A stretch of 64,000 nt of DNA from an uncultured Bacteroidota bacterium. GTDB lineage: Bacteria; Bacteroidota; Bacteroidia; 2-12-FULL-35-15. Made by a program: the position numbers and the translations under genes. Within the stretch, counting starts at the first letter, position 1; the number at the start of each line of letters is the position of its first letter. The notes below the pieces were generated by a model. The model was not told where the DNA came from. It worked only from the letters and a program-made list of their open reading frames with translations, and ran no database searches. Location of the stretch: NCBI GenBank assembly GCA_903847205.1, contig CAINDA010000037.1:1-64000 (forward strand), given 5' to 3'. Shown piece after piece: positions 13,218-35,726 of this stretch.

Positions 13218-13318
13218 ATATATTTTATTTTCTGCCTGCAATTGATAAATTTATATATTTTTGCAGCATAAAACGATTTCGTAGCTCAGCTGGTAGAGCA
13301 ATTGACTCTTAATCAATG
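13218..13318 (+). repeat. Left attachment site of element 1: 101-bp direct repeat, copy A
   Basis: Identical over 101 bp to 27171-27271. It comprises about 57 bp upstream of tRNA-Lys, including a TATTTTTG box, and the tRNA 5' half through the anticodon stem. Identity stops sharply at 13319. The upstream part is next to chromosomal genes, so this is taken as the native promoter side. Confidence 0.9.
13275..13318 (+). pseudogene. Truncated tRNA-Lys(CTT), 5' half only
   Basis: The first 44 nt match the complete tRNA at 27228-27303 exactly: acceptor strand GATTTCG, D arm, and anticodon arm with loop CTCTTAA. The T arm and 3' acceptor strand are missing because element 1 begins here. Its promoter is intact, so a 5' half-tRNA may be transcribed into the element. 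Confidence 0.88.
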
Positions 13319-13374
13319 CTACAAAGCCATACTTTACAGTGTTTACAGCCATTCAGCCTCCTCTCTTTCCTATT

Positions 13375-13394
13375 GTGCAAGTGATTTGCAAGTT
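13375..13394 (+). repeat. Left arm-type repeat of element 1
   Basis: GTGCAAGTGATTTGCAAGTT matches 18 of 20 bases of 27039-27058 (GTGCATGTAATTTGCAAGTT), which overlaps the integrase upstream region. Paired repeats near both ends next to the integrase fit arm-type integrase sites (inference). Confidence 0.5.
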
Positions 13395-13432
13395 TTAGCC
13401 TGGTTAATAATTGAATTTTCATAAATGTTTTT

Positions 13433-13873
13433 TTAAATCATTCCTTCGTCAGCAAAGCTGTAATACCCTTCATCAGTAATAATAATATGATCTACCAAAT
13501 GAATTTCTAAAACTTTTCCAGCCTCCTTAATATTTTTAGTGATTTTAATATCAGCATCTGAGGGCTGTAAATTACCGCTTGGGTGATTGTGACAGAGTAT
13601 TATTGAATTTGCATTTGCTTTTAAAGCAGTCTGAAAGATAACTTTTGTATCTACTACCGTTCCTGTAGTCCCTCCAATACTGATTTTAGCAAATCCAAGA
13701 ACCTTGTTAGCCCTGTTGAGTAATAGGATATACATTTCTTCTATATACTGGATTTTATCACTCCACAGCCCTCTAAATTGTTTTTCTGCATCTTTGGAAG
13801 TAACAACTTTGGGACAATCGGATAGTTTAAATAGCGGTTTATAATTGATAGTTATTTCTGATAATGTTTCCAT
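13433..13873 (-). CDS. RadC-like JAB domain protein
   Basis: A 146-residue protein starting at METLSEITINYKPLF (ATG 13871-13873); the frame is open further upstream to 13987, but the extension is low-complexity and unlike the family. It contains the JAB/MPN metal site CHNHPSGNLQPSDAD and the ending HLVDHIIITDEGYYSF, which mark RadC (PF04002). This short, JAB-only form without the helix-hairpin-helix domain is common in Bacteroidota mobile elements; its biochemical role is unsettled. It is the leftmost gene of element 1. Its 5' leader resembles those of the next two minus-strand genes. Confidence 0.9.
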   Translation of the reverse strand: METLSEITINYKPLFKLSDCPKVVTSKDAEKQFRGLWSDKIQYIEEMYILLLNRANKVLGFAKISIGGTTGTVVDTKVIFQTALKANANSIILCHNHPSGNLQPSDADIKITKNIKEAGKVLEIHLVDHIIITDEGYYSFADEGMI

Positions 13874-14118
13874 GTTTTTAGGTTTAAGATTAATAAAAAA
13901 ATTAATGATTTGTAATTTGATACAGGTAATATAAATACATAGCTCCCCTCTGCATTTTTTAGTGCTTTTTATTGCACTACGTGGCATCTCACCAGTTTAG
14001 GAAGTAAATGGGCAACTAAACCTCAACTATGTATCTAATGTCATTTTAATCGGCTAAAATCGAGTAATTAAGCTATAAGAATATGGCTGTGTGCTTTTTG
14101 AATGAGTAGCTTATTGAA

Positions 14119-14394
14119 TTAATTAAAGGTTGTTTGGACAGCTGTAGCTTTGGAGATAATCATAAAATAATGGTGGTAATATCCTTCGCCCTTTATAACA
14201 TAAACCAGCCTGTAATCAATACTCATTTTAACCGCAATTACGATTACTTCCTGACCGATGATATAACTTTGTACCTCCTGAATACAGACAGCCTTAAATG
14301 GGCAATAAAGCCTATAAATGCCCTGCTTATTTACAACCAATAAGCTGTTATTTGAACAAAGCTTGGTGAGTTCAATAATGTTGTTTTGATTCAT
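14119..14394 (-). CDS. Small element-encoded protein, unknown function
   Basis: A 91-residue protein starting at MNQNNIIELTKLCSNNSL (ATG 14392-14394); a longer frame exists but lacks a better start. It is beta-rich with GIYRLYCPFKAVCIQEVQSYIIGQEVIV and a repeated SxDYRLVYVIKGEGYYHHYFMI, and ends in TAVQTTFN. I do not recognise a family. Its leader (ATTTCTAACATTAAAAAAC before ATG) resembles those of the RadC gene and of 14484-14816, which suggests shared expression control. Confidence 0.6.
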   Translation of the reverse strand: MNQNNIIELTKLCSNNSLLVVNKQGIYRLYCPFKAVCIQEVQSYIIGQEVIVIAVKMSIDYRLVYVIKGEGYYHHYFMIISKATAVQTTFN

Positions 14395-14483
14395 GTTTTT
14401 TAATGTTAGAAATTTAAAATAAAAAAAAGGGGAACCAAATCGGAACCCCTTAATCAATCACGTCTAACAAGCAAACAAACTAA

Positions 14484-14816
14484 CTAATCCCCCGAAAAGA
14501 CAGCTTGCTCAGCTCTTACATCAACTGCGATGTATTGGTATTGGTGATTTAAAACTATTGTATCATTTGTTCCGGGTACTTTGTAGTTGTAACCTTCGCA
14601 GTCAACTTTTTTAATCAGTCCCGGAAATTTTGTACCGATTAAAGCTTTACATGTTGCATCATCCAGAGTAGATGTTATTGAAGCTTTTCGAGCATGTGCA
14701 TAGAACTTGCCGGTATCTACAGCCTGAATAAGTTCTACCTCTCCTTGTAATTCAAGGGTGTTAAAATCCTCATCTTTTGAGTTTTTTCTTTTTTTAAAAT
14801 TGATTACTGTTACCAT
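14484..14816 (-). CDS. Small element-encoded protein, unknown function
   Basis: A 110-residue protein starting at MVTVINFKKRKNSKDEDFN (ATG 14814-14816). After a basic and acidic start it has a beta-rich body (LELQGEVELIQAVDTGKFYAHARKASITSTLDD) and ends LNHQYQYIAVDVRAEQAVFSGD. Proteins of this kind recur in Bacteroidota integrative elements, but I cannot assign a domain. The leader before ATG is TTAATCTAAATTCTAAAACA, close to that of RadC. It is probably a separate transcript from the divergent gene at 15012. Confidence 0.62.
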   Translation of the reverse strand: MVTVINFKKRKNSKDEDFNTLELQGEVELIQAVDTGKFYAHARKASITSTLDDATCKALIGTKFPGLIKKVDCEGYNYKVPGTNDTIVLNHQYQYIAVDVRAEQAVFSGD

Positions 14817-14999
14817 TGTTTTAGAATTTAGATTAAGTGCCGGGGGTGTTTCCACCGCTTACACTGAGCCGGGGTGCTTTTATGGTGGTGGTTGTGCTGT
14901 ACACCTATATTCAACTAGTTTAAAAAAAATAAAAAAAATAATTCTGCGTTTGTTGGGGGATTGCTAAAATTCCTAGCAAGAATACTGAACCGCTCTTTG

Positions 15000-15007
15000 T
15001 AACTTTG
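15000..15007 (+). promoter_or_regulatory. -7 promoter box before 15012 gene
   Basis: TAACTTTG matches TAnnTTTG exactly and lies 4 bp before the ATG, implying a nearly leaderless message. A -33 TTG at the right spacing is not evident. Confidence 0.4.
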
Positions 15008-15011
15008 CTGT

Positions 15012-15395
15012 ATGGAATTAATTTTAAAACAGCCGGAAAACAAACCTCCCTGTATCTGTATATTATTTGATAATAGTTATGAAGCTTCAAGACACAATCA
15101 AAAATTAGTCAGCCAGTACAGCATGTATCCTTTTACAATAAAATTGGAATTACAAAACTCAAAACTGGATTTGATACTTACTGTTGGAGGGCTTAATACC
15201 AGTTACAAGTATGAAGATTTAAAATTTGCGCCGGATAAACTCACTCGTTTTTTATTTAATACTAAGGATTCAAAAGCTTATAATTTCTGTCATGTTATTT
15301 TAAAGCAGGATAAACACTCTGTTGTACAAACAATGACTAATAGGCTTTTATGGGTGTTGAAGATTGATAGTGTTGAATTTGTTGAGGAATATTAA
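15012..15395 (+). CDS. Unknown 127-residue protein in element 1
   Basis: Plus-strand gene between the two minus-strand blocks of element 1. The protein is globular with no signal or membrane segment: PPCICILFDNSYEASRHNQKL, then FTIKLELQNSKLDLILTVGGLN, ending RLLWVLKIDSVEFVEEY. No family is recognised. A TAACTTTG box sits immediately upstream. Being convergent with the long minus-strand operon, it may be an independent accessory or regulatory gene. Confidence 0.6.
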   Translation: MELILKQPENKPPCICILFDNSYEASRHNQKLVSQYSMYPFTIKLELQNSKLDLILTVGGLNTSYKYEDLKFAPDKLTRFLFNTKDSKAYNFCHVILKQDKHSVVQTMTNRLLWVLKIDSVEFVEEY

Positions 15396-15426
15396 CGTAA
15401 AATCTAAATATGCTCTATTTTCTGGT

Positions 15427-16110
15427 TCAACAATACTCTTCAATTTTCTCCATACTCACCAATAGGTAGCCAAGCTCAACTATTCTTTTACCAACTTTCT
15501 CATAACATTCGTGCAGATATTCAAATCTCAAACTCATGTGACCACCAGCATCTGAGAATTTCTCCGCCGCTTGTAATTGACCAATATGCCTCCGGGTTAC
15601 ATTCCTTAAATAATCACTTCCAATTTTTTCTTTTTCTAAAAAATCAATTATTGCCTTTTTTATTGGAGCAATAGATATTAAAAGTGTTCTATTAAAATCA
15701 AGATCATCGTTATTGTGATATTCTCTAAGTGTGTTGTATCCATTTTTCAAATCTTCTTCATCTGCATTTGCAAAATTGTTAATACAAGACTTAATTTCAG
15801 TGATACACTCCTCTATTTTTTTAATATAACTACTTCCTAAATCATTGATGGCTGGGAGGTTTGATATTTTAACAGCCAAGTCCTTTAAAGAATCATTGAG
15901 CTTTGTATAAAAGCTTTCAAATAATTTACTATAAGCCTCTCGCACATCATCCGCATTCTTTCTTTCCTCTTCATTCTTAAATGGTTTAAAATTTAGTTTT
16001 GCCCTGTGTATCGTATAAGCTTCTTTTATTTTATCAGGAGAAGCATTTTTTTCTAGACCTACTATTTGATAATAATCTTTATTCATCACTTGTATTTTTA
16101 AATTATCCAT
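15427..16110 (-). CDS. J-domain-like protein without the HPD motif
   Basis: A 227-residue protein, last gene of the minus-strand operon, 10 bp after 16121-16588. Residues about 11-68 align with a J domain (KDYYQIVGLEKNASPDKIKEAY...NADDVREAYSKLF), but the loop that should hold HPD reads LNFKPF. HPD is required to stimulate Hsp70 ATPase, so this protein probably cannot act as a normal co-chaperone and may be a J-like interaction module. Residues about 70-227 are helical and unassigned. The ATG at 16108-16110 is used; a second Met at residue 9 directly before KDYY is an alternative start. Confidence 0.7.
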   Translation of the reverse strand: MDNLKIQVMNKDYYQIVGLEKNASPDKIKEAYTIHRAKLNFKPFKNEEERKNADDVREAYSKLFESFYTKLNDSLKDLAVKISNLPAINDLGSSYIKKIEECITEIKSCINNFANADEEDLKNGYNTLREYHNNDDLDFNRTLLISIAPIKKAIIDFLEKEKIGSDYLRNVTRRHIGQLQAAEKFSDAGGHMSLRFEYLHECYEKVGKRIVELGYLLVSMEKIEEYC

Positions 16111-16120
16111 TGTTATTGTA

Positions 16121-16588
16121 TCAATGTATTACCCTAGTTTCTACCAATGGTGCAAATATCTCCAAATCTTTACCATTCCATATTGCTTCTGCACAGGAAG
16201 CTCTATTTAGAGTTTTCACTGAATTTATAATAGTAGAAGCTCCAACAAAATCTTCAATTAAATCTTCAATAAAAACTTTTTGACCGATAAAAAGATCATT
16301 GGGAATTAAATAAGCTGACTGAGGTGATTTAAACCTGTAAAAAAAATGGTAGATATTATCAGTTACTTTTTTTATAATTTTCAAAAGAATATTACGCTCC
16401 GCTTTAGAAGAATCTACTTTCTTACTTTGAGATGATTGCTTACCAACTAGTGGAGAATAATAAACATTCCTGTTTAAAGTGATGTAGCCATTTTTTGAAT
16501 ATTTGTTAATGGAATCAATATCCCTGGCTGTTTTAATAACTCTTAAACACAATGGGTTGTTTTTTATATCCCAACTAGATGGCTCCAT
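16121..16588 (-). CDS. Unknown operon protein, 155 residues
   Basis: Cytoplasmic protein of unknown family in the minus-strand operon, 64 bp after the AAA ATPase and 10 bp before the HPD-less J-domain gene. Visible features are SSWDIKNNPLCLRVIKTARD near the start, a basic serine-rich stretch (GKQSSQSKKVDSSKAER) and a C-terminal half with FIEDLIEDFVGASTIINSVKTLN. No catalytic motif is seen. Operon position suggests it works with the ATPase and J proteins. Confidence 0.6.
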   Translation of the reverse strand: MEPSSWDIKNNPLCLRVIKTARDIDSINKYSKNGYITLNRNVYYSPLVGKQSSQSKKVDSSKAERNILLKIIKKVTDNIYHFFYRFKSPQSAYLIPNDLFIGQKVFIEDLIEDFVGASTIINSVKTLNRASCAEAIWNGKDLEIFAPLVETRVIH

Positions 16589-16652
16589 GATAAATAGTTT
16601 TATATTTCCTGATTGTGAACTGGCATGAGCAATACAGTAATCTTTCTATCCC

Positions 16653-17753
16653 TTATTCAACAGTTACTAACGGCTCATTTATTACAAACCCCAGTTTTTT
16701 ATCTGCATCATTGAACTCCTTGTCATTTTGATTAAATATTTCTGCAAGCGTCATTTCTTTATTAATAATAGTTTCAAATCCTAATGACGCTGATAATTGT
16801 TTGGATTTCTCAATACATAATGCACCAAAATTATATTTAGCTATCAATCTTCCTTTTCTCATAAGCGCCTTATCAACTTTAGAAATATCGGTATTGAAGG
16901 AACAAATAATTTGTATTTTAAGACAATCTGAAAGAAGTCCGTCAGAGAGATTAAGTAAATTAGAAATAGCTGAATTACCTCCGGCTTTTCGCTCTCCAAT
17001 TATATTCTCAGCATCTTCAATAACAATTATTGAATTTGGGTATTGACTAATCATAGAAAGAAATGTGGGAGACCCAATTTTTTCAGCAAATTCAGGGCTT
17101 ATATATATCATCCGCTTATTAACTACAGAAGTCAAATAACGAATATAACTGGTCTTACCTGTTCCCGGCAAACCATGAAGCAATATTAACCCTTTATCAT
17201 TTTTGCTATTTAACCTCTCCAGAATATTGTTGTGAATGGGTATAAAATCATCATTATAATTCTTTTCTAGGCTTATTGAATTATTTACGATATCAAAAGA
17301 CTTAATATCATCAGCATAACTTTGTTCCTGAAGCAGAAAAAGCTTGTTTAGATAAGGATTTACAGTTAAATGTGTTTTTATAATGCCTATAACCTTATCA
17401 AGTAATTTTTTATTTGTCTTTGGTGAATAGAGTAAATCAATTCTTTGTGAATCAGGATTAAAATGTATCAAAAGGTTATCCTTAACCGGAATAAGAAAAT
17501 TGTAAATCTCATATTTATCCTCCTCCTCTTTCACCTTATTTACCTGAATTATATCATCCTCATTTATTGAAAGCTCTGTTATCAGTAATTTGAAAAGTAG
17601 CTGTTTATCATAGCAGAAAAAACAGAGTGCATTAGGGATACAGCCATTAATTGTGAAAAACATATATGGAGCATGTATAAAATGTGAAGGCTCAAACATA
17701 TCAACCATTTTAGGATGGTTGCGGTAGTTTATTGGCGTTGTTTTTACACTCAT
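16653..17753 (-). CDS. AAA-family ATPase
   Basis: A 366-residue protein with an N-terminal domain of about 180 residues that I cannot assign, followed by a single AAA module: Walker A GLPGTGKT at 194-201, Walker B IIVIEDAE at 242-249, sensor-1 asparagine in SFNTD (N287) and arginine-finger candidates in LMRKGRLI (R299, R302). The arrangement resembles BCS1/FtsH-like AAA domains, which remodel or unfold proteins. Its start overlaps the stop of the 61-residue upstream gene by 4 bp (ATGA), so the two are translationally coupled. Within the operon it is the likely energy source. Confidence 0.85.
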   Translation of the reverse strand: MSVKTTPINYRNHPKMVDMFEPSHFIHAPYMFFTINGCIPNALCFFCYDKQLLFKLLITELSINEDDIIQVNKVKEEEDKYEIYNFLIPVKDNLLIHFNPDSQRIDLLYSPKTNKKLLDKVIGIIKTHLTVNPYLNKLFLLQEQSYADDIKSFDIVNNSISLEKNYNDDFIPIHNNILERLNSKNDKGLILLHGLPGTGKTSYIRYLTSVVNKRMIYISPEFAEKIGSPTFLSMISQYPNSIIVIEDAENIIGERKAGGNSAISNLLNLSDGLLSDCLKIQIICSFNTDISKVDKALMRKGRLIAKYNFGALCIEKSKQLSASLGFETIINKEMTLAEIFNQNDKEFNDADKKLGFVINEPLVTVE

Positions 17754-17935
17754 GATTCTAAAGATGTATTCTGATTACTTTTTTCTTCTTGACCCTTAAT
17801 TAATTTCAGGAGGTCAACTTCATCAGGTGTTTTTTGAATAGGATTTTCAGCTTCCTTTTTATTCCTGTCTCTAATTTCTTCCATTTCATAAATTAAAGCA
17901 GTTCCACATTTTCTACGTTCTGAGCGCATTGTCAT
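17750..17935 (-). CDS. Small charged operon protein, 61 residues
   Basis: Short, highly charged protein (RSERRKCGTALIYEMEEIRD, then ENPIQKTPDEVDLLKLIKG) with no known family. It starts 38 bp after the LPW-repeat gene and its TGA overlaps the ATG of the AAA gene, which supports it being a real gene. It may be an adaptor or simply a coupling peptide. Confidence 0.55.
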   Translation of the reverse strand: MTMRSERRKCGTALIYEMEEIRDRNKKEAENPIQKTPDEVDLLKLIKGQEEKSNQNTSLES

Positions 17936-17973
17936 AGTCTTTTTTTTAAGTTAATTATTAAATTATTGGCTTT

Positions 17974-19293
17974 TCAATTATCTATTCTTTTCATCACTAT
18001 ATCAATCATTGCTTCATCAACAAATGGTTTAAATACTTTTTCCCATACCAAGTCATTACTGCTTATGTAATCCCAAATCCATTTGTTATCAAAATTTTCA
18101 AGTAGCTCGATTGACCAAGGGAAATTTTCATTCCCGTGAGATAGCCAATTCCAATCTAATTTATTCTCAAATGTTTTAATTAATTCAAACGACCAAGGAA
18201 GTTGCTCGTTAGCGCTTAAACGGCTCCAATCCCAATGGTTTTCAAATTTTTTAATTAGTTCAATTGTCCAAGGTAAACTCTTATTTTGGCTCAAAAAATA
18301 CCACTCCCATCTATCTTCAAACTTCTTTATTAAGTCAGTATCCCAAACTTGTTTTCCAACATTTGAATTAACCCATCCATAGACATCTTCAAACAAAGGT
18401 CTTCTTTCTATTGGGTTTTTGTAATATTCGTTTACCTTATATTTTTCAACATATCCACTAAATTTTTTTTCCGCCGGTTTTGGAGATTCGTGATACTGCA
18501 AAACAATTTTATTTTTAAATTCCTGCATAATTTCTAATGGTAAACTTAGTTCCGTAAGGAGTTTCCAGTTCCATTTTTGCTCAAATGCTTCAATTAATTC
18601 TACTGACCAAGGCAACCCTCTATTTTTACTTAAGCAATTCCAATCCCATTTATCTTCGTATATTTTAATTAATCCTATTTCCCATGGTAAATTTTTGTTT
18701 GCGCTTAAACCACCCGGGTAACTTTTGCCCCAGTTGTCAATATCACTTGAAATTGCCCAGCTCCATTTATTTTTAAATAACTCAATTAGTTCTGCCGACC
18801 AAGGCAAGTTTTGACTCATGCTTAACTCTTCCCAATCTAATTTTGATTCATACTTTCTCAACAATTCAATTGTCCATGGCAAATGTTTATTAGCGCTTAG
18901 CCCGTTTTGTCCCCAATGCCATTTTTCTAAAAACATTTCTATTAATTCAATTGACCACGGAATAGACGAACTGTTACTTAAAGAATAATAACGATCATTC
19001 CAGTTCCAATAGTCACTAAATCTTTTTAGTAATAGACCAGACCAACTCAAATTTTTATTTTGACTTAATTCATTCCAATCCCATTTATTAATATATTTTC
19101 CAATAAGCCTATCATTCAAAGGATAATAGCGTGGAATGATTTTTATAAAAAAATCGGGATGGCTTAAAAAAAAATTAATAATTTTTTGATTTTCAACCAT
19201 TGCTAATAACTTGCTTGTAATCGCAATGGAATTAGTAACCTTTTGCAAAGCATCGCCTTCAAATTTTATTAGTTTATTTTCTTCCATCTTCAA
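17974..19293 (-). CDS. LPW-repeat protein (about twelve 25-residue repeats)
   Basis: A 439-residue protein built almost wholly of repeats with consensus LPWSxELIxxFExKWDWxxLSxN. About twelve copies run from residue about 55 to the end, interrupted near residues 270-310 by a linker rich in K, E and P. Each unit has an invariant Trp pair and a helix, suggesting a solenoid scaffold. Residues about 5-30 (NKLIKFEGDALQKVTNSIAI) form a separate N-terminal motif. I know no function for this repeat. The start overlaps the upstream J-domain gene by 20 bp, so the pair is coupled. A second Met two codons downstream is an alternative start. Confidence 0.75.
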   Translation of the reverse strand: MKMEENKLIKFEGDALQKVTNSIAITSKLLAMVENQKIINFFLSHPDFFIKIIPRYYPLNDRLIGKYINKWDWNELSQNKNLSWSGLLLKRFSDYWNWNDRYYSLSNSSSIPWSIELIEMFLEKWHWGQNGLSANKHLPWTIELLRKYESKLDWEELSMSQNLPWSAELIELFKNKWSWAISSDIDNWGKSYPGGLSANKNLPWEIGLIKIYEDKWDWNCLSKNRGLPWSVELIEAFEQKWNWKLLTELSLPLEIMQEFKNKIVLQYHESPKPAEKKFSGYVEKYKVNEYYKNPIERRPLFEDVYGWVNSNVGKQVWDTDLIKKFEDRWEWYFLSQNKSLPWTIELIKKFENHWDWSRLSANEQLPWSFELIKTFENKLDWNWLSHGNENFPWSIELLENFDNKWIWDYISSNDLVWEKVFKPFVDEAMIDIVMKRIDN

Positions 19294-20173
19294 ATTGACT
19301 TAGCTGTTCCTGTAGTTGTTGTTTAATTAACGTAAAATATTCATCCCAATCTTTAATTGTAGTTATTTTTTCAAATGTGTCACTTGTTTTTATAACTCTA
19401 ATTTCCTTTGCCAACACCTGCAAATTCATGCGTAAACGTTCTAATGTTGCTTGAAGGCTGGTTTTTTCATTTGTATTATCTGACTTGCTTTTGAAAGTTT
19501 TCCCTTGTTGTAAGTTGTCTAAAATTTCAGAAACTCTTTTTAAATCGTTTTGTTCGTATGCAGTATTTAGTTCTGTAAATATTTTATGCGCTTCTTCTTT
19601 TTGTTCCTCAGTTACTATATCAGGATGGCAGAGTTTACTTGCCCGGCGGTATTTTTCTTTAAGCACTTTTTTTTCATCATCCGTTAAAACTAAAATTTGT
19701 TCGTCCTTAGTAGCTTCGTAGTTTGAATGAAAATCTTCATAGTCTTTATTTGTTTCTTTTTCCTGCGGTGTATCTTTGTATTGCTCTTTTCGGAATTTTA
19801 AAATCTTTAATATCAATTCACCCAACTCCTGATTGTGCCGTACTCCAAACTCATGAATCAACTTTTCTAATTCTGCTTTTTCATCACTCAGTTGCTGTAA
19901 TTGTGCTTCTAATGCTTTGGCTTCAAAACACAGGGCTTCAATTTCTGGGTCAATATAATTAGCTACCTGCCGGTGTTGGTTTATAAAGTTTTCTATTGCA
20001 GTCAAAGCTTTACCAAAAGCCTTGTTTTGAAGATAGACTATAATGTTTTTTACATCATCATTCAACTCTAAAGCTTGTAGTTTCAATACCTGTGAAGCAA
20101 TTTCTTCTTCCTCCTCCAATGAAATCAGATTCTTTATTAATTCAAGCCGTTTAATTATTTTCTGATTTTCCAA
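19274..20173 (-). CDS. J-domain protein with coiled-coil N-terminus
   Basis: A 299-residue protein. Residues about 1-130 are helical with a charged coiled coil (LEAQLQQLSDEKAELEKLI). Residues about 165-222 form a J domain with an intact HPD (183-185) in KYRRASKLCHPDIV, followed by FTELNTAYEQNDL. J domains recruit and activate Hsp70, so this protein could connect the operon to the host DnaK. The C-terminus is another coiled coil. The gene follows 20222-21229 by 48 bp and overlaps the LPW-repeat gene. It lacks the zinc-finger and substrate domains of true DnaJ. Confidence 0.82.
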   Translation of the reverse strand: MENQKIIKRLELIKNLISLEEEEEIASQVLKLQALELNDDVKNIIVYLQNKAFGKALTAIENFINQHRQVANYIDPEIEALCFEAKALEAQLQQLSDEKAELEKLIHEFGVRHNQELGELILKILKFRKEQYKDTPQEKETNKDYEDFHSNYEATKDEQILVLTDDEKKVLKEKYRRASKLCHPDIVTEEQKEEAHKIFTELNTAYEQNDLKRVSEILDNLQQGKTFKSKSDNTNEKTSLQATLERLRMNLQVLAKEIRVIKTSDTFEKITTIKDWDEYFTLIKQQLQEQLSQFEDGRK

Positions 20174-20221
20174 TGCGCTTAATAGTTAATTATTATGAGA
20201 GATCATCGTTGTAGTTGCCGA

Positions 20222-21229
20222 TCAATCAATTTTTTTTCCAGTCTTGGAATCTCCCAAAAATTTATCTTCTGCCTTCTTAGTAGCAAGAGCTTTAGCTGCA
20301 AGTCTGTTTCTTTTATATAACTCATGCATATCAAGAGCCTCTTGCATCTTCGCAGCATTTTCAATAAATAATGCTTGCGCTAAGACCTCTGGGCTTGGGG
20401 TAACGTTTAATTCAAACCATAGCCAATTCAAATTCCTATCTGCATTTTCAAATACGTAATACAATTTTTCTTCTTTCTGATTTTTATTTATTAATTCATT
20501 GAACGTAAAATTGTGCTTCACTTTTTTAGAAAAATAAATTGTTGAAGCCACTTCTTTTTTGTAGTTAAGGATTACAAGTTTTCGATTCTTAAAATCAATT
20601 TCAATGTTAACTCCATTAATTTCATTATAATATCTGTTGAATGGCTTTGACGTTGATGTGGCGATATTTATTTTATTAATATCAAAATCTTTTCTTTTAA
20701 AATGCTCTAGATGCGGTTCATCTTTCTTAATATCCGATTCAAATTGACCATATTCAATTCTAACTTTTTCCAAGTCTTCTCTATTTTTATCATCCCTCTT
20801 TTTATTTTCTTCCTGTCTTTTTTTTAACTTTTCTTCTTTTGCAATAATAAAATGATGCTTTGCTGTTTTATTTTCTTCTGCTATTATTAAAAAATCGTAT
20901 AAAACGGATGTAATTCTTGGTAAATCGTTTTCTTCATCAATTCTCACAATTAGTGCATGGAAATCGAAGGTGTACATTATTTCATCCTTAATTGTTTTTA
21001 TAGCAGAGTAGTTGTCGTTATCAATTGTGCGTAATATTGAGTCAAATTCAATGTTTTGCATGAAAAATTGTTCAAGTAAATCATAAACAGCTTTTCTTGC
21101 CTCATCAATCTTGTCGCAAAATCTAGATACACTCATTCCTGTACACCCATTTTTCAACATGAGTGGAGCTTGTCTACCATTAAGCGTATTTAAAATCTCG
21201 CTTGCCAATAGATCAATTTTATTCGTCAT
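20222..21229 (-). CDS. Unknown coiled-coil protein, first gene of the operon
   Basis: A 335-residue protein with a helical N-terminal domain (residues 1-130), a charged coiled coil about 130-165 (KEEKLKKRQEENKKRDDKN), a beta-rich middle (GVNIEIDFKNRKLVILNY) and a helical end (AAKMQEALDMHELYKRNRLA). No family is recognised. It is the promoter-proximal gene of a seven-gene minus-strand operon and starts 28 bp downstream of the tRNA-like element, so that element may lie in its leader. Confidence 0.65.
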   Translation of the reverse strand: MTNKIDLLASEILNTLNGRQAPLMLKNGCTGMSVSRFCDKIDEARKAVYDLLEQFFMQNIEFDSILRTIDNDNYSAIKTIKDEIMYTFDFHALIVRIDEENDLPRITSVLYDFLIIAEENKTAKHHFIIAKEEKLKKRQEENKKRDDKNREDLEKVRIEYGQFESDIKKDEPHLEHFKRKDFDINKINIATSTSKPFNRYYNEINGVNIEIDFKNRKLVILNYKKEVASTIYFSKKVKHNFTFNELINKNQKEEKLYYVFENADRNLNWLWFELNVTPSPEVLAQALFIENAAKMQEALDMHELYKRNRLAAKALATKKAEDKFLGDSKTGKKID

Positions 21230-21256
21230 GATTATATTTTATTATAACTGAATTGG

Positions 21257-21383
21257 TGGTCTCCCATATGGGACTTGAACCCACGACCTCTAGCATGTGT
21301 TTTGCTAGCACTCTAACACTCATTATCCTCGAAACAAAATTTAAAATGATACCTCGACTTAAACTTTTCTGAGCTAATGGGAG
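21257..21383 (-). tRNA. Aberrant tRNA-like gene with about 50-nt insertion in the D region
   Basis: Reading the minus strand, CTCCCAT pairs perfectly with ATGGGAG, followed by discriminator A and an encoded CCA. There is TA then GCTC (D stem, pairing with GAGT), a CTAGC/GCTAG anticodon stem, variable AGGTC and a normal T arm (GTGGG, TTCAAGT, CCCAT). Two things are wrong: the D loop is about 50 nt too long (total 127 nt) and the anticodon loop is 9 nt (AAAACACAT) without U33, so no anticodon can be assigned. It is probably a non-translating tRNA-like RNA or a decayed tRNA, lying just upstream of the element-1 operon. Confidence 0.5.
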
Positions 21384-21486
21384 CTGTTTTATTAATCAGA
21401 TGTTTAGTAAAAATATTATTATTAAATCAAACTGACAAATACGTCATTAATAAATATGATTGAATTAATGAACATTGCTTCTGATA

Positions 21487-21711
21487 ATGAAGCATCAAAT
21501 CAAGAATACAGCACTTTTAAAAAGAATTAGCAGGCGAATAAAAGCTTTGAGGGAAAGGCAAGGCGTTACGCAGGAGGATTTTTATAACGATACAAATATT
21601 CATCTTGCAAGGATTGAAACTGCAAAAGGTAACATTACTGTAAGCACACTTGATGCAATCTGCAAATACTTCAAAATCTCGATAACTGAATTTTTTGAAG
21701 GCTTGGAATAA
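21487..21711 (+). CDS. XRE-family helix-turn-helix regulator
   Basis: A 74-residue protein from ATG 21487 (an in-frame TTG lies 12 bp earlier). It is essentially one HTH_3 domain: ISRRIKALRERQGVTQEDF, IHLARIETAKGNITVSTLDAI and YFKISITEFFEGL. Such single-domain repressors often control element genes. It is divergent from the minus-strand operon and precedes the polymerase-like gene, so it could regulate either. Confidence 0.88.
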   Translation: MKHQIKNTALLKRISRRIKALRERQGVTQEDFYNDTNIHLARIETAKGNITVSTLDAICKYFKISITEFFEGLE

Positions 21712-22206
21712 CTATTATTCCGTTGGAAATTTGAGTTCGACATTTTTATCAAGCCCTTTTGTACCAATTTTTTTAAAAACCAAGGATTTTCAATGTTTTA
21801 TTACTAGCTGATATTTAATAACTTATAAAAATAATTAAATTTTGTTGTAGAAAAATTACATTTTATCCAGTTATTATTAGTAATTTTGTCTTTTAATTCG
21901 TATATGGCTTCAAAACGCGAATAATTAGCCTTCAAATTTCCTACAAATTAGTTTCCGCAATTAGCTTTTCTCTTTTAAGAACAATTAGTTTTCCTGCATT
22001 TAGTAATTAGTTTGGACTGGCGCTGCGCCTTTTCAAAAACATCTTTAGAATTTTTTTTTATAAATCTTAGTAAATACTTCAATTAGGTTGAATCTTAATG
22101 GTTCAACAACTATTTTATCTGTGATTGGTGGGGTTGGTTCTGCGTGGTAGATTATTATTCCTCAAAAAATAAATTAAATAAAATATTAGAAAAAAGTAAA
22201 TGAATA
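21712..22206. other. Non-coding region with iteron-like repeats before the polymerase-like gene
   Basis: 495 bp between the XRE regulator and the polymerase-like gene, without a gene. It is AT-rich and contains the AATTAG repeat cluster at 21923-22010 and a short overlapping frame (ATG 22200, about 18 codons) that crosses the TTG start of the next gene. It is a candidate origin or operator region. Confidence 0.5.
21923..22010 (+). repeat. Iteron-like AATTAG repeats
   Basis: Five direct copies of AATTAG start at 21923, 21946, 21959, 21983 and 22005, giving spacings of 23, 13, 24 and 22 bp, close to one or two helical turns. Most are followed by a pyrimidine-rich TTTYC. Iterons of this sort are bound by replication initiators or repressors; their position 200 bp before a replication-like gene supports that reading. 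Confidence 0.45.
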
Positions 22207-23520
22207 TTGAAAATATATTTACCAGAAAATCTGGACTTGGAATCAGTGATTATTGATTACGAGGAAAAGTACAAAGAAAAGTATCAGTGGATTATTCATA
22301 CCATAGTAAGTCAAAAGTATAAAGTCAAACCCGGGATTGGGGATTACGTAAATCTTGACCAAGTAACACTAAGGAAATTCCTTGGAGAGCGTTACTGCAA
22401 GGATATACTTAAACAATTAGAGAGTAGCGGGATAATAAAAATCAACTCGAAGTATTCAGCAAATAAATTTTGCATGTCTTATAAACTCACTGAAAAATAT
22501 GGCTCTTCCGGTGTAAAAAGTGTCGATTTTACAGGGGATAAGGCAATCAGATACATTTATAAATTAAACGATTTTGATGAAAAGCGTTTAGCAGAACAAT
22601 TGAAAAACCCTGCCGTTGCTCAATTATTCAAAAATGTTTATAAAATTGATATTGATAAACAAGGCGCTCTTACCTATGCTGCCAAATCGTATAATAAAGG
22701 TGAGATTAACATTGAACAGTATATTTCTGCTTTTGTATCAATCGAAAATATCAGCAATAAGGATGAAAATTATTTTTTTACCGTTGATGAAAAGACCGGC
22801 AGGGTATATCATTCAATAGCTAACTGTCCGCGTTATTTAAGACAATTTCTGTCTTATGAGGGCGAACAACTTTTCCAAATTGATATTGCCAATAGCCAGC
22901 CGATGTTGTTTTATTCGTTGATTTTGGATTTTCTTGAAAACAGGAAGTCAATAAATGAACACATATTATCAAATAATACTAATGATACATATTTATCAAC
23001 TACACTTAGTCCCTATGTTGAGACAATTTCAGATAATGAGCTTCCTGCGGATGTAATTAGATACAAAGAAAAGACTTCAACAGGTCTGTTTTATGAAGAC
23101 CTGATGATTGAATTTGGAATTCCAATCAATACAGAAAGCAGAATAGCTTTTAAAACAAACTTCTTTGGAACGATATTTTTCAGTAAGGTACATGGTAGTT
23201 GGGAATATCCAGAATCAAAAAAATTCAAAGTGGTTTACCCAACCGTTATTGACGCTGTCATTTGGCATAAAAGATTTAGTCATGCTGACCTAGCCTTAAA
23301 GCTTCAAAAAGTTGAAAGCGATATTGTGATTAAGGGCGTTTGTGGTCGTATAGTGGAGGAGAATAATGCTGATTCTGTGCCGTTTTTCTGCACCGTACAT
23401 GATTGTATTGTTTGCTTAAACAAAGACGTTGATTATATAAAAGGACTGCTGGAAGGGGAGCTAAAAGCGGTTATGGGGTTTGTCCCAATGGTTAAAACGA
23501 GTGCTTTTGCTAAAAATTAA
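22207..23520 (+). CDS. Compact family A polymerase-like protein
   Basis: A 437-residue protein with no exonuclease domain. I read three motifs of family A nucleic-acid polymerases: motif A FQIDIANSQP (223-232, catalytic D226), motif B RIAFKTNFFGTIFFS (312-326), which has the exact R-x3-K-x3-FG-x2-F/Y spacing of the Pol I O-helix (R312, K316, F320), and motif C TVHDCIV (D399). Residues 1-110 look like a winged-helix or template-binding domain (LRKFLGERYCKDILKQLESSG). The frame is closed by a stop at 22201-22203 and the first usable start is TTG 22207. It probably copies the element DNA or synthesises a primer. The palm assignment is pattern-based inference. Confidence 0.7.
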   Translation: MKIYLPENLDLESVIIDYEEKYKEKYQWIIHTIVSQKYKVKPGIGDYVNLDQVTLRKFLGERYCKDILKQLESSGIIKINSKYSANKFCMSYKLTEKYGSSGVKSVDFTGDKAIRYIYKLNDFDEKRLAEQLKNPAVAQLFKNVYKIDIDKQGALTYAAKSYNKGEINIEQYISAFVSIENISNKDENYFFTVDEKTGRVYHSIANCPRYLRQFLSYEGEQLFQIDIANSQPMLFYSLILDFLENRKSINEHILSNNTNDTYLSTTLSPYVETISDNELPADVIRYKEKTSTGLFYEDLMIEFGIPINTESRIAFKTNFFGTIFFSKVHGSWEYPESKKFKVVYPTVIDAVIWHKRFSHADLALKLQKVESDIVIKGVCGRIVEENNADSVPFFCTVHDCIVCLNKDVDYIKGLLEGELKAVMGFVPMVKTSAFAKN

Positions 23521-23531
23521 AATCAAATCAA

Positions 23532-23738
23532 ATGAAAAGGAATATTACGTTATTGGTTAATAAAAATGGGATTGAGGGTTATGTTGATAGCCTTGGAAAT
23601 GGTTTAATAGTAAGGGGGATACTTGATTGCAATGATGATATTATAATGCGTTTTAATTCGCACTTTGAAATAAATGGCGGGTTTGACTCATTGGATATAT
23701 CAGGGCTATATTGTATGTATTTAAAGGGTTTAAGGTAG
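23532..23738 (+). CDS. Small protein downstream of the polymerase-like gene
   Basis: A 68-residue protein starting 11 bp after the polymerase-like stop, same strand. It is beta-rich (NITLLVNKNGIEGYVDSLGNG, then LDISGLYCMYLKGL) with no recognised family. The tight spacing suggests co-transcription and a role with the polymerase-like protein. The IS4 copy inserted just after its stop, at 23767. Confidence 0.5.
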   Translation: MKRNITLLVNKNGIEGYVDSLGNGLIVRGILDCNDDIIMRFNSHFEINGGFDSLDISGLYCMYLKGLR

Positions 23739-23766
23739 CCAAAATAACTCTCTATATATATAACAT

Positions 23767-25069
23767 ATCATTAGCGTCCTAATATAATTAGAACATTTTC
23801 AATTGATTACAGTTTTGTTCTTTGAAATCTTGTAGTAAAGCGTCTTCAAACAGTTGATTTATTTGAGTTTTATTCAAAAGTGTAATGCTGAGTATTTGCA
23901 ATATTTCGTAATGGGATTGTTTTAATTTCAATTTTTGTTTTGTGATTACAATAGTCAAAAATGTAATAAGTGCACAGTACACTTGGGTTTTCACTGCGTT
24001 TTCAGAGTATCCCCAAAACGATTTGACTTTTAAATGTTGTTTTATCCATTTAAAAAACAATTCGATTTTCCAACGATGCTTGTATAGATGTGCTATCTGC
24101 AAAGCTGTGAGTTCAAAATTATTAGTGATGAATACGAATTTCTTTTTTGTTTCTTGATCTGTGTATTTGATGCGTCTAAAGCTTTCTGGATACTCTTTTT
24201 TAGCATAATGATTTACCAATTTAATAGTTTGATCACATTGCACTCCGCTTGATTTGGGAGTTTTAGAAGAGTCTACTCTTTTAAATTTTATGTTGGTCTT
24301 TGCTCGGGTAACGAAATAGGCTTTGTTTTTATGAATGTTGTACAATCGTTCGTAATCTACAAATCCTCTATCCATTATGTAAAACCCATCAGCTTCATAA
24401 ATAATTCTATCAAGAACATTTACTTCATGCACTTTGCCATCAGTAATATACATATAACAAGGTATTTCTGTTTTAACATCAAGCATGGTGTGAAGGCGAA
24501 TCGCTCCTTTTTGTTTACGGAATTTTGCCCACCAAAAGACACTTAAACATAAATCAATTGTAGTGGTATCAATCGCATAGATAGAATTATTGGCAACATA
24601 ATCTAGCTCTTCATTGTTAGTGCCACGATTTCTTGCACATGCAATAAGGTTTGTTGCAAAGTCAGCAAAGATTCGCCAATCTCTATGTTCATTGGCATAA
24701 GCAAGATTGGATTTCGATATGCTATTACCTAAACCCAAATGATACCATTTGCTTCGTTGGGTTTTCAGACATAACAATAAATCACTAAGACTATCTCGAT
24801 TACTCAACTGGCCAAACATCATACAGAGTAACTGATGCCAACAAGTAAATTGCTTTACCTTGTAATTACCATTGTAATTATCAACGCATTTATTAAAATC
24901 ATTCGCATCTAATAAAGATGTTATTTGAGAAAAAACATATTTGCCTGTATTCATTCAGCCAATTTACTTTTAAGTAAATTGAAATCGTTTGAGTTCAGGT
25001 TTTACACCAAACGCTTTACTATCAATATTTTCAAAGAACTTTTAATTTCGTCTTTAGGACGGTAATGAT
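23767..25069. mobile_element. IS4-family insertion sequence (1303 bp)
   Basis: Ends are imperfect inverted repeats: ATCATTAGCGTCCTAA on the left and, read from the right, ATCATTACCGTCCTAA (15 of 16). The flanking AACAT at 23762-23766 and 25070-25074 is a 5-bp target duplication, which fixes the boundaries. It encodes one transposase on the minus strand and lies inside element 1 without breaking a recognisable gene. Confidence 0.88.
23788..24954 (-). CDS. IS4-family transposase
   Basis: A 388-residue DDE transposase. It starts with the N-terminal domain typical of this group (FSQITSLLDANDFNKCVDNY, FTCWHQLLCMMFGQLSNRDS) and has the catalytic acids in YAIDTTTIDL, the second D in FYIMDRGFVDY and the glutamate in HRWKIELFFKWIKQHLKVKSF, which corresponds to the Y-R-E-K signature. 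Length and motifs are complete, so it is likely active. It fills the insertion sequence at 23767-25069. Confidence 0.95.
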   Translation of the reverse strand: MNTGKYVFSQITSLLDANDFNKCVDNYNGNYKVKQFTCWHQLLCMMFGQLSNRDSLSDLLLCLKTQRSKWYHLGLGNSISKSNLAYANEHRDWRIFADFATNLIACARNRGTNNEELDYVANNSIYAIDTTTIDLCLSVFWWAKFRKQKGAIRLHTMLDVKTEIPCYMYITDGKVHEVNVLDRIIYEADGFYIMDRGFVDYERLYNIHKNKAYFVTRAKTNIKFKRVDSSKTPKSSGVQCDQTIKLVNHYAKKEYPESFRRIKYTDQETKKKFVFITNNFELTALQIAHLYKHRWKIELFFKWIKQHLKVKSFWGYSENAVKTQVYCALITFLTIVITKQKLKLKQSHYEILQILSITLLNKTQINQLFEDALLQDFKEQNCNQLKMF

Positions 25070-25230
25070 AACATATATATATTAAATAACAATTATTTAA
25101 GTTTGGATATAATACCCCTATGTTGAGACATTTGTACTAACGTCAACAAATCAATTTTGATAACATTAAAGAGCTGGCAGGATTAATTATTCTGCTGGTT
25201 TTTTATTTCAAAAAGATAGTATAAACGATC

Positions 25231-25656
25231 TTAGCTACATGCTTTAAGCATAGCAATGAGAACCACGGCTCCTTTAATTATTTTAAAAAGTGTTACACCA
25301 ATAAAAGAAAGAATTCCTAATGAGTGCATCCTGTCGTAATATCTTATTTTTAGTTTTGTGTACCAGTTATGATAAAACCAATGATTTCTAAACATAAGAT
25401 ATAAACGGATTCTCTGACGCCGGCTCAACTTTACATAATATATTCTTGAATCGTCAGCTAGTATTATTTCTGCGTTTATTTTTTTATTAGAATATATTTT
25501 GATTTTTGAAATTCTGTAATAAAACGAAAGTTTAATAAATTCAGATATTCTTTCATTTCTTATTAGGTCAGACAAAAGGTACTTATCAGCTAGGTTGAGT
25601 TTTCCTATATATTTTTGCTTTTTAGAATCTAAATTTTCGTAATACAGGACTTTCAT
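25231..25656 (-). CDS. Unknown protein with C-terminal hydrophobic segment
   Basis: A 141-residue protein from ATG 25654-25656; a TTG at 25735-25737 would add 27 hydrophobic residues and is less convincing. The body is basic and aromatic (YYENLDSKKQKYIGKLN, SRRQRIRLYLMFRNHWFYHNW) and the end has a probable membrane helix (FIGVTLFKIIKGAVVLIAML). No family is recognised. It lies between the IS and the integrase of element 1. Confidence 0.55.
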   Translation of the reverse strand: MKVLYYENLDSKKQKYIGKLNLADKYLLSDLIRNERISEFIKLSFYYRISKIKIYSNKKINAEIILADDSRIYYVKLSRRQRIRLYLMFRNHWFYHNWYTKLKIRYYDRMHSLGILSFIGVTLFKIIKGAVVLIAMLKACS

Positions 25657-25801
25657 TTGTAATATTTCATTAATAAATACAATGCTGGTTTCAAAAATTA
25701 AAACTATCGAAAACTTAAAAATTCCTTCTATTTTCAAATGTACTCATTTAAGAACATTACAAATAAAAACACCAACCTTTTAGAGCTGGTGCTTTGTTCT
25801 G

Positions 25802-27013
25802 TTAAACGGCAGTAACTTTTTCATTCATCTGATCTATTACTTCATTGCCGTAGTTATCCAAATAGATGCCTGTTACTGAATTTCCGAAGCTGTGACCAAG
25901 GGATTCAGCGATTAAATCTTTTGAATACCCTGAAAATCTAGCGATGTTAGCCCAACTATAACGTGCTACATAGGTAGTTAAAGGGATTTGAAGCTCCAAA
26001 GGTTTTAACTTACCAAGCCGTTTTAGAAATTTATTGCAGGTTTTAAGTTTTAAATGGATTGCCTTTATTTCTTGGGCTTTAATAACACCATCAATATTAA
26101 AATGAGAAATCAAATATTCACTACCTTCCTTTCTATAGATATTTATGATTCTCTCTGCCTCCGGCGTCACTTTAATACTATAGATTTTACCCGTCTTTCT
26201 GCGCTTATAAACAACTCTCCCATTCTGAATGCTGTTATGCTTCAAAAGGGCTAAATCAATGAAGGAAATGCCTATTAAATTGAATATTAAAAAGAATATA
26301 TTCCTGCTGTGCCATTCTTCCGTTCCTTCAATTAATGAAAGGTTTTTAAGCTTCTCCAAATCACTTCCGGTTATCGCCCTGCTCACAGTCTTCACAGATT
26401 TAATTTTATAGTTATTGAACGGATATTTGTTTTTATCCAACAACTCCTTTTTAATAGCCTTATTAAGCAGAGCTCTTATTTCACGCATATAAACAGCAAC
26501 ACTGTTCCGGCTTAATCCTTCTTTTACTAATAGAACATCAAAATCAGAAATTACGGTATAAGTTATTTTATCTAAAGCGATATTCTTACCTGTAAATTTA
26601 ATAAGGCGGTTAACAGCAGCCTCGTAGGATTGGGCGTTTCCATATCTTTCTTGATCTCTCAGAAGCTTAATTTCATTGGTAGCAAAGTCATAGAAGGTAA
26701 TAACAGCCACTTTATTTTCATTCAACAGTGCCTTCTTTAAGTCTAATACATTTAGCTCTCCAAGCTGTGCAGTGATTTCTAATTGCTTCTTTTCTAAATC
26801 ATACAGCTTTTGTTTTAGATGGAGATTCAGATTTATAGAATTGGGGTGATTTTTTGTTACTTTACCTTTAGCAGCGTCCCATTCTTTATCAAACAATTTA
26901 AGCCCGGATTCAATTGAAGTGCTTTTTGTATTTGAAGTCAATCTAAAGATAATAGGGTATCTCCCATCAGAGTAGGGACGCCGGTTATCCATAGTTAATT
27001 TTAATGTTGCCAT
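25802..27013 (-). CDS. Tyrosine recombinase, integrase of element 1
   Basis: A 403-residue integrase starting at MATLKLTMDNRR (ATG 27011-27013); an upstream Met adds 14 unlikely residues. It has an N-terminal arm-binding domain of the Bacteroidota type (RPYSDGRYPIIFRLTSN), a SAM-like core-binding domain (about 115-210) and a catalytic domain with VYKRRKTGK, the ARYSWANIAR box, LGHSFGNSVTGIYLDNY and the nucleophilic tyrosine in YLDNY. It lies at the right end of element 1, 158 bp from the 101-bp repeat, and should catalyse integration and excision at tRNA-Lys. Confidence 0.93.
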   Translation of the reverse strand: MATLKLTMDNRRPYSDGRYPIIFRLTSNTKSTSIESGLKLFDKEWDAAKGKVTKNHPNSINLNLHLKQKLYDLEKKQLEITAQLGELNVLDLKKALLNENKVAVITFYDFATNEIKLLRDQERYGNAQSYEAAVNRLIKFTGKNIALDKITYTVISDFDVLLVKEGLSRNSVAVYMREIRALLNKAIKKELLDKNKYPFNNYKIKSVKTVSRAITGSDLEKLKNLSLIEGTEEWHSRNIFFLIFNLIGISFIDLALLKHNSIQNGRVVYKRRKTGKIYSIKVTPEAERIINIYRKEGSEYLISHFNIDGVIKAQEIKAIHLKLKTCNKFLKRLGKLKPLELQIPLTTYVARYSWANIARFSGYSKDLIAESLGHSFGNSVTGIYLDNYGNEVIDQMNEKVTAV

Positions 27014-27038
27014 ATTTTGAGATTTATGGCTAAAACTT

Positions 27039-27058
27039 GTGCATGTAATTTGCAAGTT
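27039..27058 (+). repeat. Right arm-type repeat of element 1
   Basis: GTGCATGTAATTTGCAAGTT, 18 of 20 identical to 13375-13394. With the preceding ACTTG it also forms an interrupted palindrome (ACTTG...CAAGT). It sits directly upstream of the integrase start, where integrase binding could repress its own gene (inference). Confidence 0.5.
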
Positions 27059-27170
27059 GGATGGGAAATCTAACTTTTTGAAGAAGTAGAAAAATTATAC
27101 AAATATTTCTAGAAAAGGATAGCTAAAAATATAAAATCATGTAGAACGCTGTTATATCAGCCTTTTCTAA

Positions 27171-27271
27171 ATATATTTTATTTTCTGCCTGCAATTGATA
27201 AATTTATATATTTTTGCAGCATAAAACGATTTCGTAGCTCAGCTGGTAGAGCAATTGACTCTTAATCAATG
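27171..27271 (+). repeat. Right attachment site of element 1: 101-bp direct repeat, copy B
   Basis: Exact copy of 13218-13318. Here it leads into the complete tRNA-Lys, so element 1 appears to have supplied the upstream region and 5' half of that tRNA. Confidence 0.9.
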
Positions 27272-27303
27272 GGTCGAGAGTTCGATCCTCTCCGAAATCA
27301 CCA
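27228..27303 (+). tRNA. tRNA-Lys(CTT), complete
   Basis: 76 nt with encoded CCA. Acceptor GATTTCG pairs with CGAAATC, D arm GCTC/GAGC, anticodon stem ATTGA/TCAAT with loop CTCTTAA (anticodon CTT, reads AAG), and T arm GAGAG/CTCTC with TTCGATC. All stems pair. It reads lysine codons in translation. It is the only complete copy of this tRNA in the window and lies exactly at the junction of the two elements. Confidence 0.97.
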
Positions 27304-27311
27304 GTAAAATC

Positions 27312-27347
27312 AAACGCTTTAGACTTTTAAGAGTTTAAAGCGTTTTT
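27312..27347 (+). terminator. Terminator of tRNA-Lys, supplied by element 2
   Basis: AAACGCTTTA pairs with TAAAGCGTTT, followed by T residues, 9 bp after the tRNA. It lies inside element 2, unlike the terminator at 35727-35758, which follows the truncated copy. Confidence 0.75.
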
Positions 27348-27369
27348 AATTTGCACAAAATTTGCACAA
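27348..27369 (+). repeat. Left 22-bp repeat of element 2
   Basis: Two tandem TTTGCACAA units, identical over 22 bp to 35534-35555. Location near both ends, the right copy beside the integrase start, fits arm-type integrase sites. Confidence 0.6.
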
Positions 27370-27469
27370 TAACTACCCTCTAAACATCAAAAGCACAATT
27401 AAGCGTAAAAGCTGATATAGACTTGGGGGCTGGTCTATTGCTGAGGTGAAAGTAAGAAGATATTTATTG

Positions 27470-28546: not shown

Positions 28547-28547
28547 G

Positions 28548-28877
28548 CTAAGAACTTTTCTTTTTTAAATAAGTATTAGCTTCACTATTAATTTCGGCAA
28601 TAGTTTTTTTACGCCCGGTTTTTACCCAGTCCATAAGTTCCTGTTTTGAGAAATACAAACGCTTTCCTTTTTTGGAAAAAGGAATATCGTTACGGCTCAC
28701 ATAACCATAAAGAGTTGGTACAGAAAGTTTGATTAATAATCCCACCTCCTGAATGGTAAGAAGTTGGTCGGTTTCGGGTTGATTGTTTCGGTTACTTAAT
28801 AACCTTTCGATATTATCTAACTTAGTAGATAATTCACTTACTGCATGGGGCAGGTTTTCAAATGTAATTTCAGTCAT
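28548..28877 (-). CDS. Excisionase-like HTH_17 DNA-binding protein
   Basis: A 109-residue protein. After a short helical start it has a MerR/excisionase-type helix-turn-helix: LLTIQEVGLLIKLSVPTLYG, then IPFSKKGKRLYFSKQELMDW. It is encoded immediately upstream of the Rep gene in the same direction. Such proteins bend att DNA to favour excision or act as regulators of the Rep gene. Confidence 0.88.
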   Translation of the reverse strand: MTEITFENLPHAVSELSTKLDNIERLLSNRNNQPETDQLLTIQEVGLLIKLSVPTLYGYVSRNDIPFSKKGKRLYFSKQELMDWVKTGRKKTIAEINSEANTYLKKKSS

Positions 28878-28969
28878 TGCGCTTTTCTATATTGATTATA
28901 GCGCAATGTTACTATCAACAAATACCTTCAACCGGTTGCAACCGGTTGAGAATATTTGTTTAATATGCT

Positions 28970-30277: not shown

Positions 30278-30288
30278 TGATATTAATG

Positions 30289-33333: not shown

Positions 33334-33353
33334 AGTTAATGAATAAAATTATT

Positions 33354-34037: not shown

Positions 34038-34258
34038 TATTTGTTATTTATTGAATATTTAATTAAAAATTATTATTAAATATTTGCATAGGCGCAATCC
34101 AATACGTATATTTGTGTCATCTTATTCCCGATAGTCCCTGAAGCAATTCAAACTATCGGGTTTCGTTTTTTATAAGCATTTCTGTTTCTTTTATTGGGTA
34201 GATGTGCTTAAGAGACACATCAACTGTTTTACAAAGCTAACTTATTTTAGCCGGCTGT

Positions 34259-35506: not shown

Positions 35507-35533
35507 TTGTAATTATTTTTGTGCAAATATAAC

Positions 35534-35555
35534 AATTTGCACAAAATTTGCACAA
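35534..35555 (+). repeat. Right 22-bp repeat of element 2
   Basis: Identical to 27348-27369. An inverted TTTGTGCAAAT lies next to it at 35517-35527, so the integrase upstream region holds several TTTGCACAA sites. Confidence 0.6.
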
Positions 35556-35719: not shown

Positions 35720-35726
35720 TTCAGAT

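Follow-up and report, generated by a model that had tools for sequence, protein, structure and literature searches.

An A-family polymerase-like protein without an exonuclease domain on a tRNA-Lys island of an uncultured Bacteroidota bacterium

Background

A gene of an uncultured Bacteroidota bacterium encodes a protein of 437 amino acids whose motifs recall those of DNA polymerase I, and it raises the questions of whether this protein is an A-family polymerase, to which known group it is related, and what it may do for the mobile element that carries it. The gene lies at positions 22207..23520 on the + strand of the window, the whole stretch of 64,000 nucleotides that we analysed. The initial annotation had described its product as a minimal element-borne replicase or primase of the superfamily that includes Pol I and T7 RNA polymerase. 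As described below, fold, residues and genomic context bear out the place in the superfamily, while the enzymatic activity is argued by analogy.

The tRNA-Lys island and its polymerase gene

The gene appears to be carried by an integrated element of about 13.95 kb (13319..27271), recognized by a flanking 101-bp repeat and by an integrase gene beside a tRNA. The left attachment repeat (13218..13318), which holds the promoter side and the 5' half of tRNA-Lys, is identical to the right one (27171..27271), a perfect copy that overlaps the intact tRNA-Lys (CTT; 27228..27303, + strand, called by ARAGORN), the integration target. No empty attachment site was found among 36 genomes of the genus. The integrase is a tyrosine recombinase (25802..27055, - strand) that matches the Pfam models Phage_int_SAM_5 and Arm-DNA-bind_5. 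A second element (27272-35720) adjoins the first on the right at the same tRNA-Lys; it encodes an integrase (34259-35506), a Rep_1-like protein (27470-28546), a type IIG restriction enzyme (30289-33333) and an HTH_17 protein, and repeats the 3' half of the tRNA in a nearly identical copy of 47 bp (35674-35720). Within the first element, the - strand at 21258-21330 resembles the 3' part of a tRNA, is not called by ARAGORN and has no other copy in the genome; it may mark a former attachment site.

At the left end of the island is a RadC-like JAB-domain protein (13433..13987, - strand; Pfam RadC, E 2.5e-40), whose sequence cluster (cluster 8) is present in 6 related loci. A cargo block (15427-21229) follows with two J-domain proteins, an AAA ATPase, a W-rich-repeat protein and others without a family. 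Upstream of the polymerase lies a Cro/C1-type HTH regulator (21475..21711, + strand; Pfam HTH_3, E 1.7e-8), and HTH_3-type genes occur within 9 kb of the polymerase in 14 related loci. An ORF of 68 amino acids with no family match (23532..23738, + strand) lies downstream, and the interval between polymerase and integrase holds an IS4-family insertion (23765..25071, - strand; NCBIfam transpos_IS4_1, E 1.7e-81), which has a terminal inverted repeat, encodes its transposase at 23788-24954 and sits about 245 bp 3' of the polymerase gene.

The polymerase ORF starts with a TTG codon at 22207, only one codon 3' of an in-frame stop codon, and ends at 23520. The start site is common to the relatives, whose alignment opens with 'M-K-x-x-Y-x-P-x-N-L-D-L'. 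Two features that the initial annotation had seen around the gene did not hold: the upstream region has no iterons, its repeats being weak, AT-rich and present in just two copies, and the gene described as small and coupled is the downstream ORF of 68 amino acids, at whose position relatives have no recurring gene cluster. As a single query the 437-residue protein gave nothing significant in Pfam, NCBIfam, PHROGs or PDB (a DnaD_N match at E 0.04 falls short of significance), and its N-terminal region searched alone had no match. Pattern scans with the single protein gave nothing useful, and those with two alignments, which are too diverse, gave no patterns.

Relatives in Bacteroidota and in huge phages

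Of 295 genomes sampled from the same class, whole-genome searches found a family match in 16 (about 5%), and the host genome itself encodes a second copy. A profile-guided scan extended the family to 80 loci in named genomes, almost all of them Bacteroidota, plus 15 viral contigs. Members are found on a Hymenobacter plasmid and in huge-phage genomes of 595-735 kb. After removal of near duplicates and fragments, the main alignment consists of 72 diverse sequences with about 20-29% identity. Two members carry C-terminal domains of homing-endonuclease type, one (L049:9968-12028) with NUMOD1 and a weaker GIY-YIG match, the other (L084:1506-3305) with NUMOD4 and HNH_3.

Of 97 related loci, 56 encode an integrase of one sequence cluster no more than 9 kb from the polymerase. 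The integrase gene often follows the polymerase directly, on the other strand, and about 29 of the 56 loci also have a tRNA within 400 bp of the integrase. The abutting tRNAs have many specificities. Given these frequencies, the order polymerase-integrase-tRNA is a design that recurs across Bacteroidota. The neighbouring cargo differs among the loci, while the polymerase-integrase pair recurs.

Several members are encoded beside a second A-family gene. On three huge-phage contigs (L026:5995-8441, L034:7992-10441 and L035:8001-10471) the family gene shares a 4-bp overlap with a second small gene of DNA_pol_A type; this second protein has 429 amino acids, and the copy tested (L035) matches DNA_pol_A (PF00476) with E 1.5e-21. 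On a fourth huge-phage contig, 267 bp separate the family gene from a Pol A gene of 429 amino acids. The coupling of two A-family genes suggests a division of labour, and the overlap makes the family protein unlikely to be the only elongating polymerase of those phages. The second host copy (L163:10648-16717, on host contig C61) is about 1 kb from a Pol A gene of 606 amino acids on the opposite strand, beyond which are a helicase-like ORF of 565 amino acids and a small possible SSB ORF.

We considered whether the polymerase might be the initiator of a plasmid replicon. This idea was dropped, since the Hymenobacter plasmid with a family member also encodes an ordinary annotated replication initiator.

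Predicted fold and active site

An AlphaFold2 model built from the 72-sequence alignment has a mean pLDDT of 88.2 and a pTM of 0.86. Its best Foldseek matches in the PDB are Klenow-type enzymes, with E from 4.5e-6. VIA-align superposes about 260 residues, from about residue 118 to the C-terminus, on Pol theta, the apicoplast polymerase (apPol), Taq, Bst, Klenow and T7 DNA polymerase, with Z of 14-16 and rmsd of 3.2-4.1. TM-scores over the whole chain are low (0.3-0.45), which we attribute to the placement of domains and to the missing exonuclease. The fold search on the predicted structure thus recovered the right-hand palm that the earlier motif assignment called for, and the modelled fold is confidently that of a Pol A right hand with palm, fingers and thumb. 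All PDB matches listed for the model are DNA polymerases, with no RNA polymerases among them. The best matches among viral structures (BFVD) are phage proteins of 403-409 amino acids, one of them named putative DNA polymerase I, and further matches include proteins of an Aeromonas phage and of Rheinheimera phage Barba31A.

The model divides into a putative N-terminal domain (residues about 1-117), thumb-like helices (about 118-190), and palm and fingers (about 190-437). The protein was said to lack a 3'-5' exonuclease domain, and this agrees with the model, where the N-terminal region of residues 1 to about 117 is followed only by thumb, fingers and palm.

Conservation across the family is concentrated in the residues expected of a polymerase active site. 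R199, D226, Q231, Y296, K316, Q367, E370 and D399 are invariant in all 72 relatives, H398 is kept in 71 and S230 in 69; position 312 holds R in 56 sequences and K in 13 (69 together). The motifs follow one another as (G)R-x-H-T, D-I-x-N-S-Q-P, R-x3-K, L-Q-x2-E and H-D-S, an order that, read from the sequences, is that of A-family polymerases. In the last motif, motif C, S is present in 70 of 72, and the island copy has C. Residue equivalence to Pol I, divPolA2 and TV-Pol (groups described below) is based on profile alignments: that with the host Pol I, at a weak score, places R312 and K316 on R-x3-K and H398 and D399 on H-D-E, and those with divPolA2 and TV-Pol identify R199 as the motif Arg and D226 as the first Asp.

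The motifs A, B and C named in the initial annotation are therefore real and conserved, with D226, K316 and D399 invariant in the 72 sequences. However, the exact 'FG' spacing of motif B is partly accidental. Family-wide, only K and an aromatic residue at K+8, the spacing of Pol I, hold in this motif, and the motif B helix of the island copy is longer by one inserted residue, so its exact F-G spacing arises partly by chance. In Pol I the steric gate is Glu710, five residues past the motif A Asp. All 72 relatives have Gln at this +5 position (Q231) instead of the Glu of Pol I, and with this replacement sugar preference could go either way.

Relationship to known A-family polymerases

PF00476, the Pfam model of DNA polymerase I, matches none of the 72 family members, and a family profile had no match among PDB sequences. 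A PF00476 match is the usual annotation criterion and not a structural one. Profile-profile comparison with the host Pol I reached only P 0.05-0.09, so that the direct link to Pol A rests on structure. The island protein shares the right-hand fold and the catalytic residues of Pol I (PF00476) and T7-type RNA polymerases. In contrast to DNA polymerase I, it is less than half the size, has no nuclease domains and carries Gln in place of the steric-gate Glu.

A much closer relationship was found with divPolA2, a divergent Pol A of unassigned role described in barbaviruses, ICP1-like and related phages (Yutin et al. 2024, PMC11348598). We compared the family by hhalign with an alignment of eight divPolA2 proteins, which include barbavirus and vibriophage ones and the published reference AUR84708, and obtained P = 3.7e-13 and 6.1e-11. 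The matched region covers about residues 189-430 (189-424 at P = 3.7e-13), and the N-terminal part lies outside it. The Barba31A and Aeromonas phage homologues among the structure matches belong to divPolA2, which corresponds to phrog_4756; this model is matched by 19 of 72 family members (best E 2.7e-8), with the island polymerase itself below the PHROG threshold. Both groups have a size of about 430 amino acids, no exonuclease, and the common motif order GR...D, R-x3-K and HDS; divPolA2 has an N-terminal globular domain of its own, and the N-terminal region of the island protein may be one as well. They differ in that divPolA2 occurs in phages of Gammaproteobacteria and the island family on mobile islands and plasmids of Bacteroidota, and in the island family's motif A, D-I-x-N-S-Q-P. 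In addition, divPolA2 phages also have a regular DNA polymerase, which is not so on the island, although the huge-phage members adjoin a Pol A gene. The initial annotation had placed motif A closer to neither known subgroup; the profile comparisons show instead that the family is related to divPolA2 and probably, more weakly, to the TV-Pols (P = 3.6e-4 by hhalign against three TV-Pol-like proteins).

The TV-Pols, or transposon-virus polymerases, are predicted prim-pols; one subset is fused or adjacent to a D5-like helicase, and another has a helical N-terminal domain (Iyer et al. 2008, PMC2579912). Against the same three-protein set, divPolA2 itself scored P 1.8e-4. The set includes Ma-LMM01 MAP_030, picked as a TV-Pol by its motifs and probably the TV-Pol of a phage named in that study (PMC2579912). 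Like the TV-Pols, the island family consists of a minimal nuclease-free Pol A core and is carried by mobile elements, where an integrase or resolvase gene is often present as well; it shares with them the motif Arg, two Asp and R-x3-K and possibly, with one TV-Pol subset, an extra N-terminal domain. At motif C, however, it has HDS, where the three proteins compared have N or G variants. No D5-like helicase was found beside the polymerase among the island ORFs searched or the recurring neighbours, and a search of 198 genomes of the phylum, run with no positive control, did not find the TV-Pol-like protein P0004. Since Bacteroidetes species (Cytophaga hutchinsonii, Psychroflexus torquis and Polaribacter dokdonensis) are among the listed TV-Pols (PMC2579912), the island family may already lie inside the published set.

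Membership in the Pol A superfamily is based on the fold and on homology to divPolA2, despite the lack of a PF00476 match. Among A-family polymerases that lack an exonuclease, the family forms a Bacteroidota branch that has no model yet and neighbours divPolA2 and TV-Pol.

Proposed role and alternatives

The catalytic residues are intact, which argues for an active enzyme, and we lean towards an exonuclease-less A-family polymerase of a Bacteroidota integrative element that primes, or primes and extends, after excision. We infer catalysis, priming, substrate choice and step of action. The integrase would excise the element from tRNA-Lys, whereupon the polymerase would synthesize short primers de novo where single strands of the element are exposed, or prime and extend. 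Priming would let the element replicate, or turn incoming single strands into duplex, before re-integration.

Primase or replicase activity is plausible by likeness to CcPol, a TV-Pol family member of SCCmec whose primase activity, together with its partner MP, is proven (Bebel 2020, PMC7581432). CcPol-MP and the PolA-SSB primases of Bacillota are A-family polymerases on integrative elements and offer a working model of priming. Those enzymes, unlike the island protein, retain the 3'-5' exonuclease domain in whole or in part, and their genes share an operon with those for an OB-fold SSB and a helicase, whereas on the island the ORF of 68 amino acids adjoins and an OB-like candidate lies 7 kb off. 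Because the exonuclease is missing, the setting is mobile and CcPol-MP sets a precedent, priming or short synthesis seems likelier than bulk replication.

The OB-like candidate is a protein of 123 amino acids (14484..14855, - strand), encoded on the strand opposite to the polymerase. Its AlphaFold2 model has the order b-b-b-a-b-b, and its top Foldseek matches in the PDB are SSB, PriB and PrgE, none of them significant (E at least 0.028, Z 4.6). In 10 loci a relative of about 110 amino acids is encoded no more than 9 kb from the polymerase. The protein is a possible ssDNA-binding partner.

Several observations speak against this proposal. No D5- or Cch2-type helicase was found next to the polymerase, and most primase arguments for TV-Pol and CcPol lean on such an adjacent helicase; the OB-like candidate is distant, only weakly OB-like and also present in genomes without the polymerase; Gln at the steric gate could allow either sugar; and the Hymenobacter plasmid with a relative has its ordinary replication initiator.

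These observations leave some room for a primer-dependent DNA polymerase with no priming of its own that serves gap filling, second-strand synthesis or repair of the element, a possible role to which we give clearly less weight. The nearest solved folds are those of DNA polymerases, CcPol alone carries out only primer extension (Rice 2023, PMC10061031), and the island yielded no dedicated helicase and no firmly identified SSB partner. The huge-phage operon argues otherwise, as two small primer-dependent enzymes side by side would be redundant.

The family's H-D-S motif C, which is also that of T7 RNA polymerase, and the replacement of the steric-gate Glu would fit a single-subunit RNA polymerase that transcribes the element or makes RNA primers. 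The interval between the motif Arg and motif A is 37 residues in Pol I and 112 in T7 RNA polymerase; that of the island protein (R199 to D226) is 27, near the former and far from the latter. Yutin and colleagues considered an RNA polymerase role for divPolA2 (PMC11348598). The listing of DNA polymerases only among the PDB matches counts against such a role but is compatible with an RNA polymerase, and on balance we judge this reading improbable.

That the protein serves phage defence or element conflict as a polymerase-like effector, and is not a replication enzyme, is very improbable. Islands of this kind often hold defence genes, and this one carries uncharacterised J-domain, AAA and repeat proteins. 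However, the island neighbours tested match no PADLOC model convincingly, beyond weak ATPase similarity, the polymerase-integrase pair recurs while cargo varies, and huge phages carry the gene beside Pol A. A decaying, inactive remnant, to which the nearby IS4 copy and the inserted residue in motif B might point, is least probable of all, as the ORF is full-length with all invariant family residues intact.

Conclusion

In its widest form, the priming proposal would have tRNA-integrating elements throughout Bacteroidota replicate by their own single-protein, helicase-independent A-family primase-polymerase with a Gln gate, and huge phages would have acquired it to do the priming in an operon with two Pol A genes; this we regard as unlikely. 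A-family primases represent a third, little-studied way to start DNA synthesis, besides DnaG and AEP primases. The family described here, essentially invisible to Pfam, occurs on islands, a plasmid and huge phages and in about one in twenty sampled genomes of the class, and it links phage divPolA2, transposon TV-Pol and huge-phage enzymes. Its small proteins may serve to probe how a Pol I fold could start a strand with no primer, and how sugars are chosen with Gln at the steric gate.
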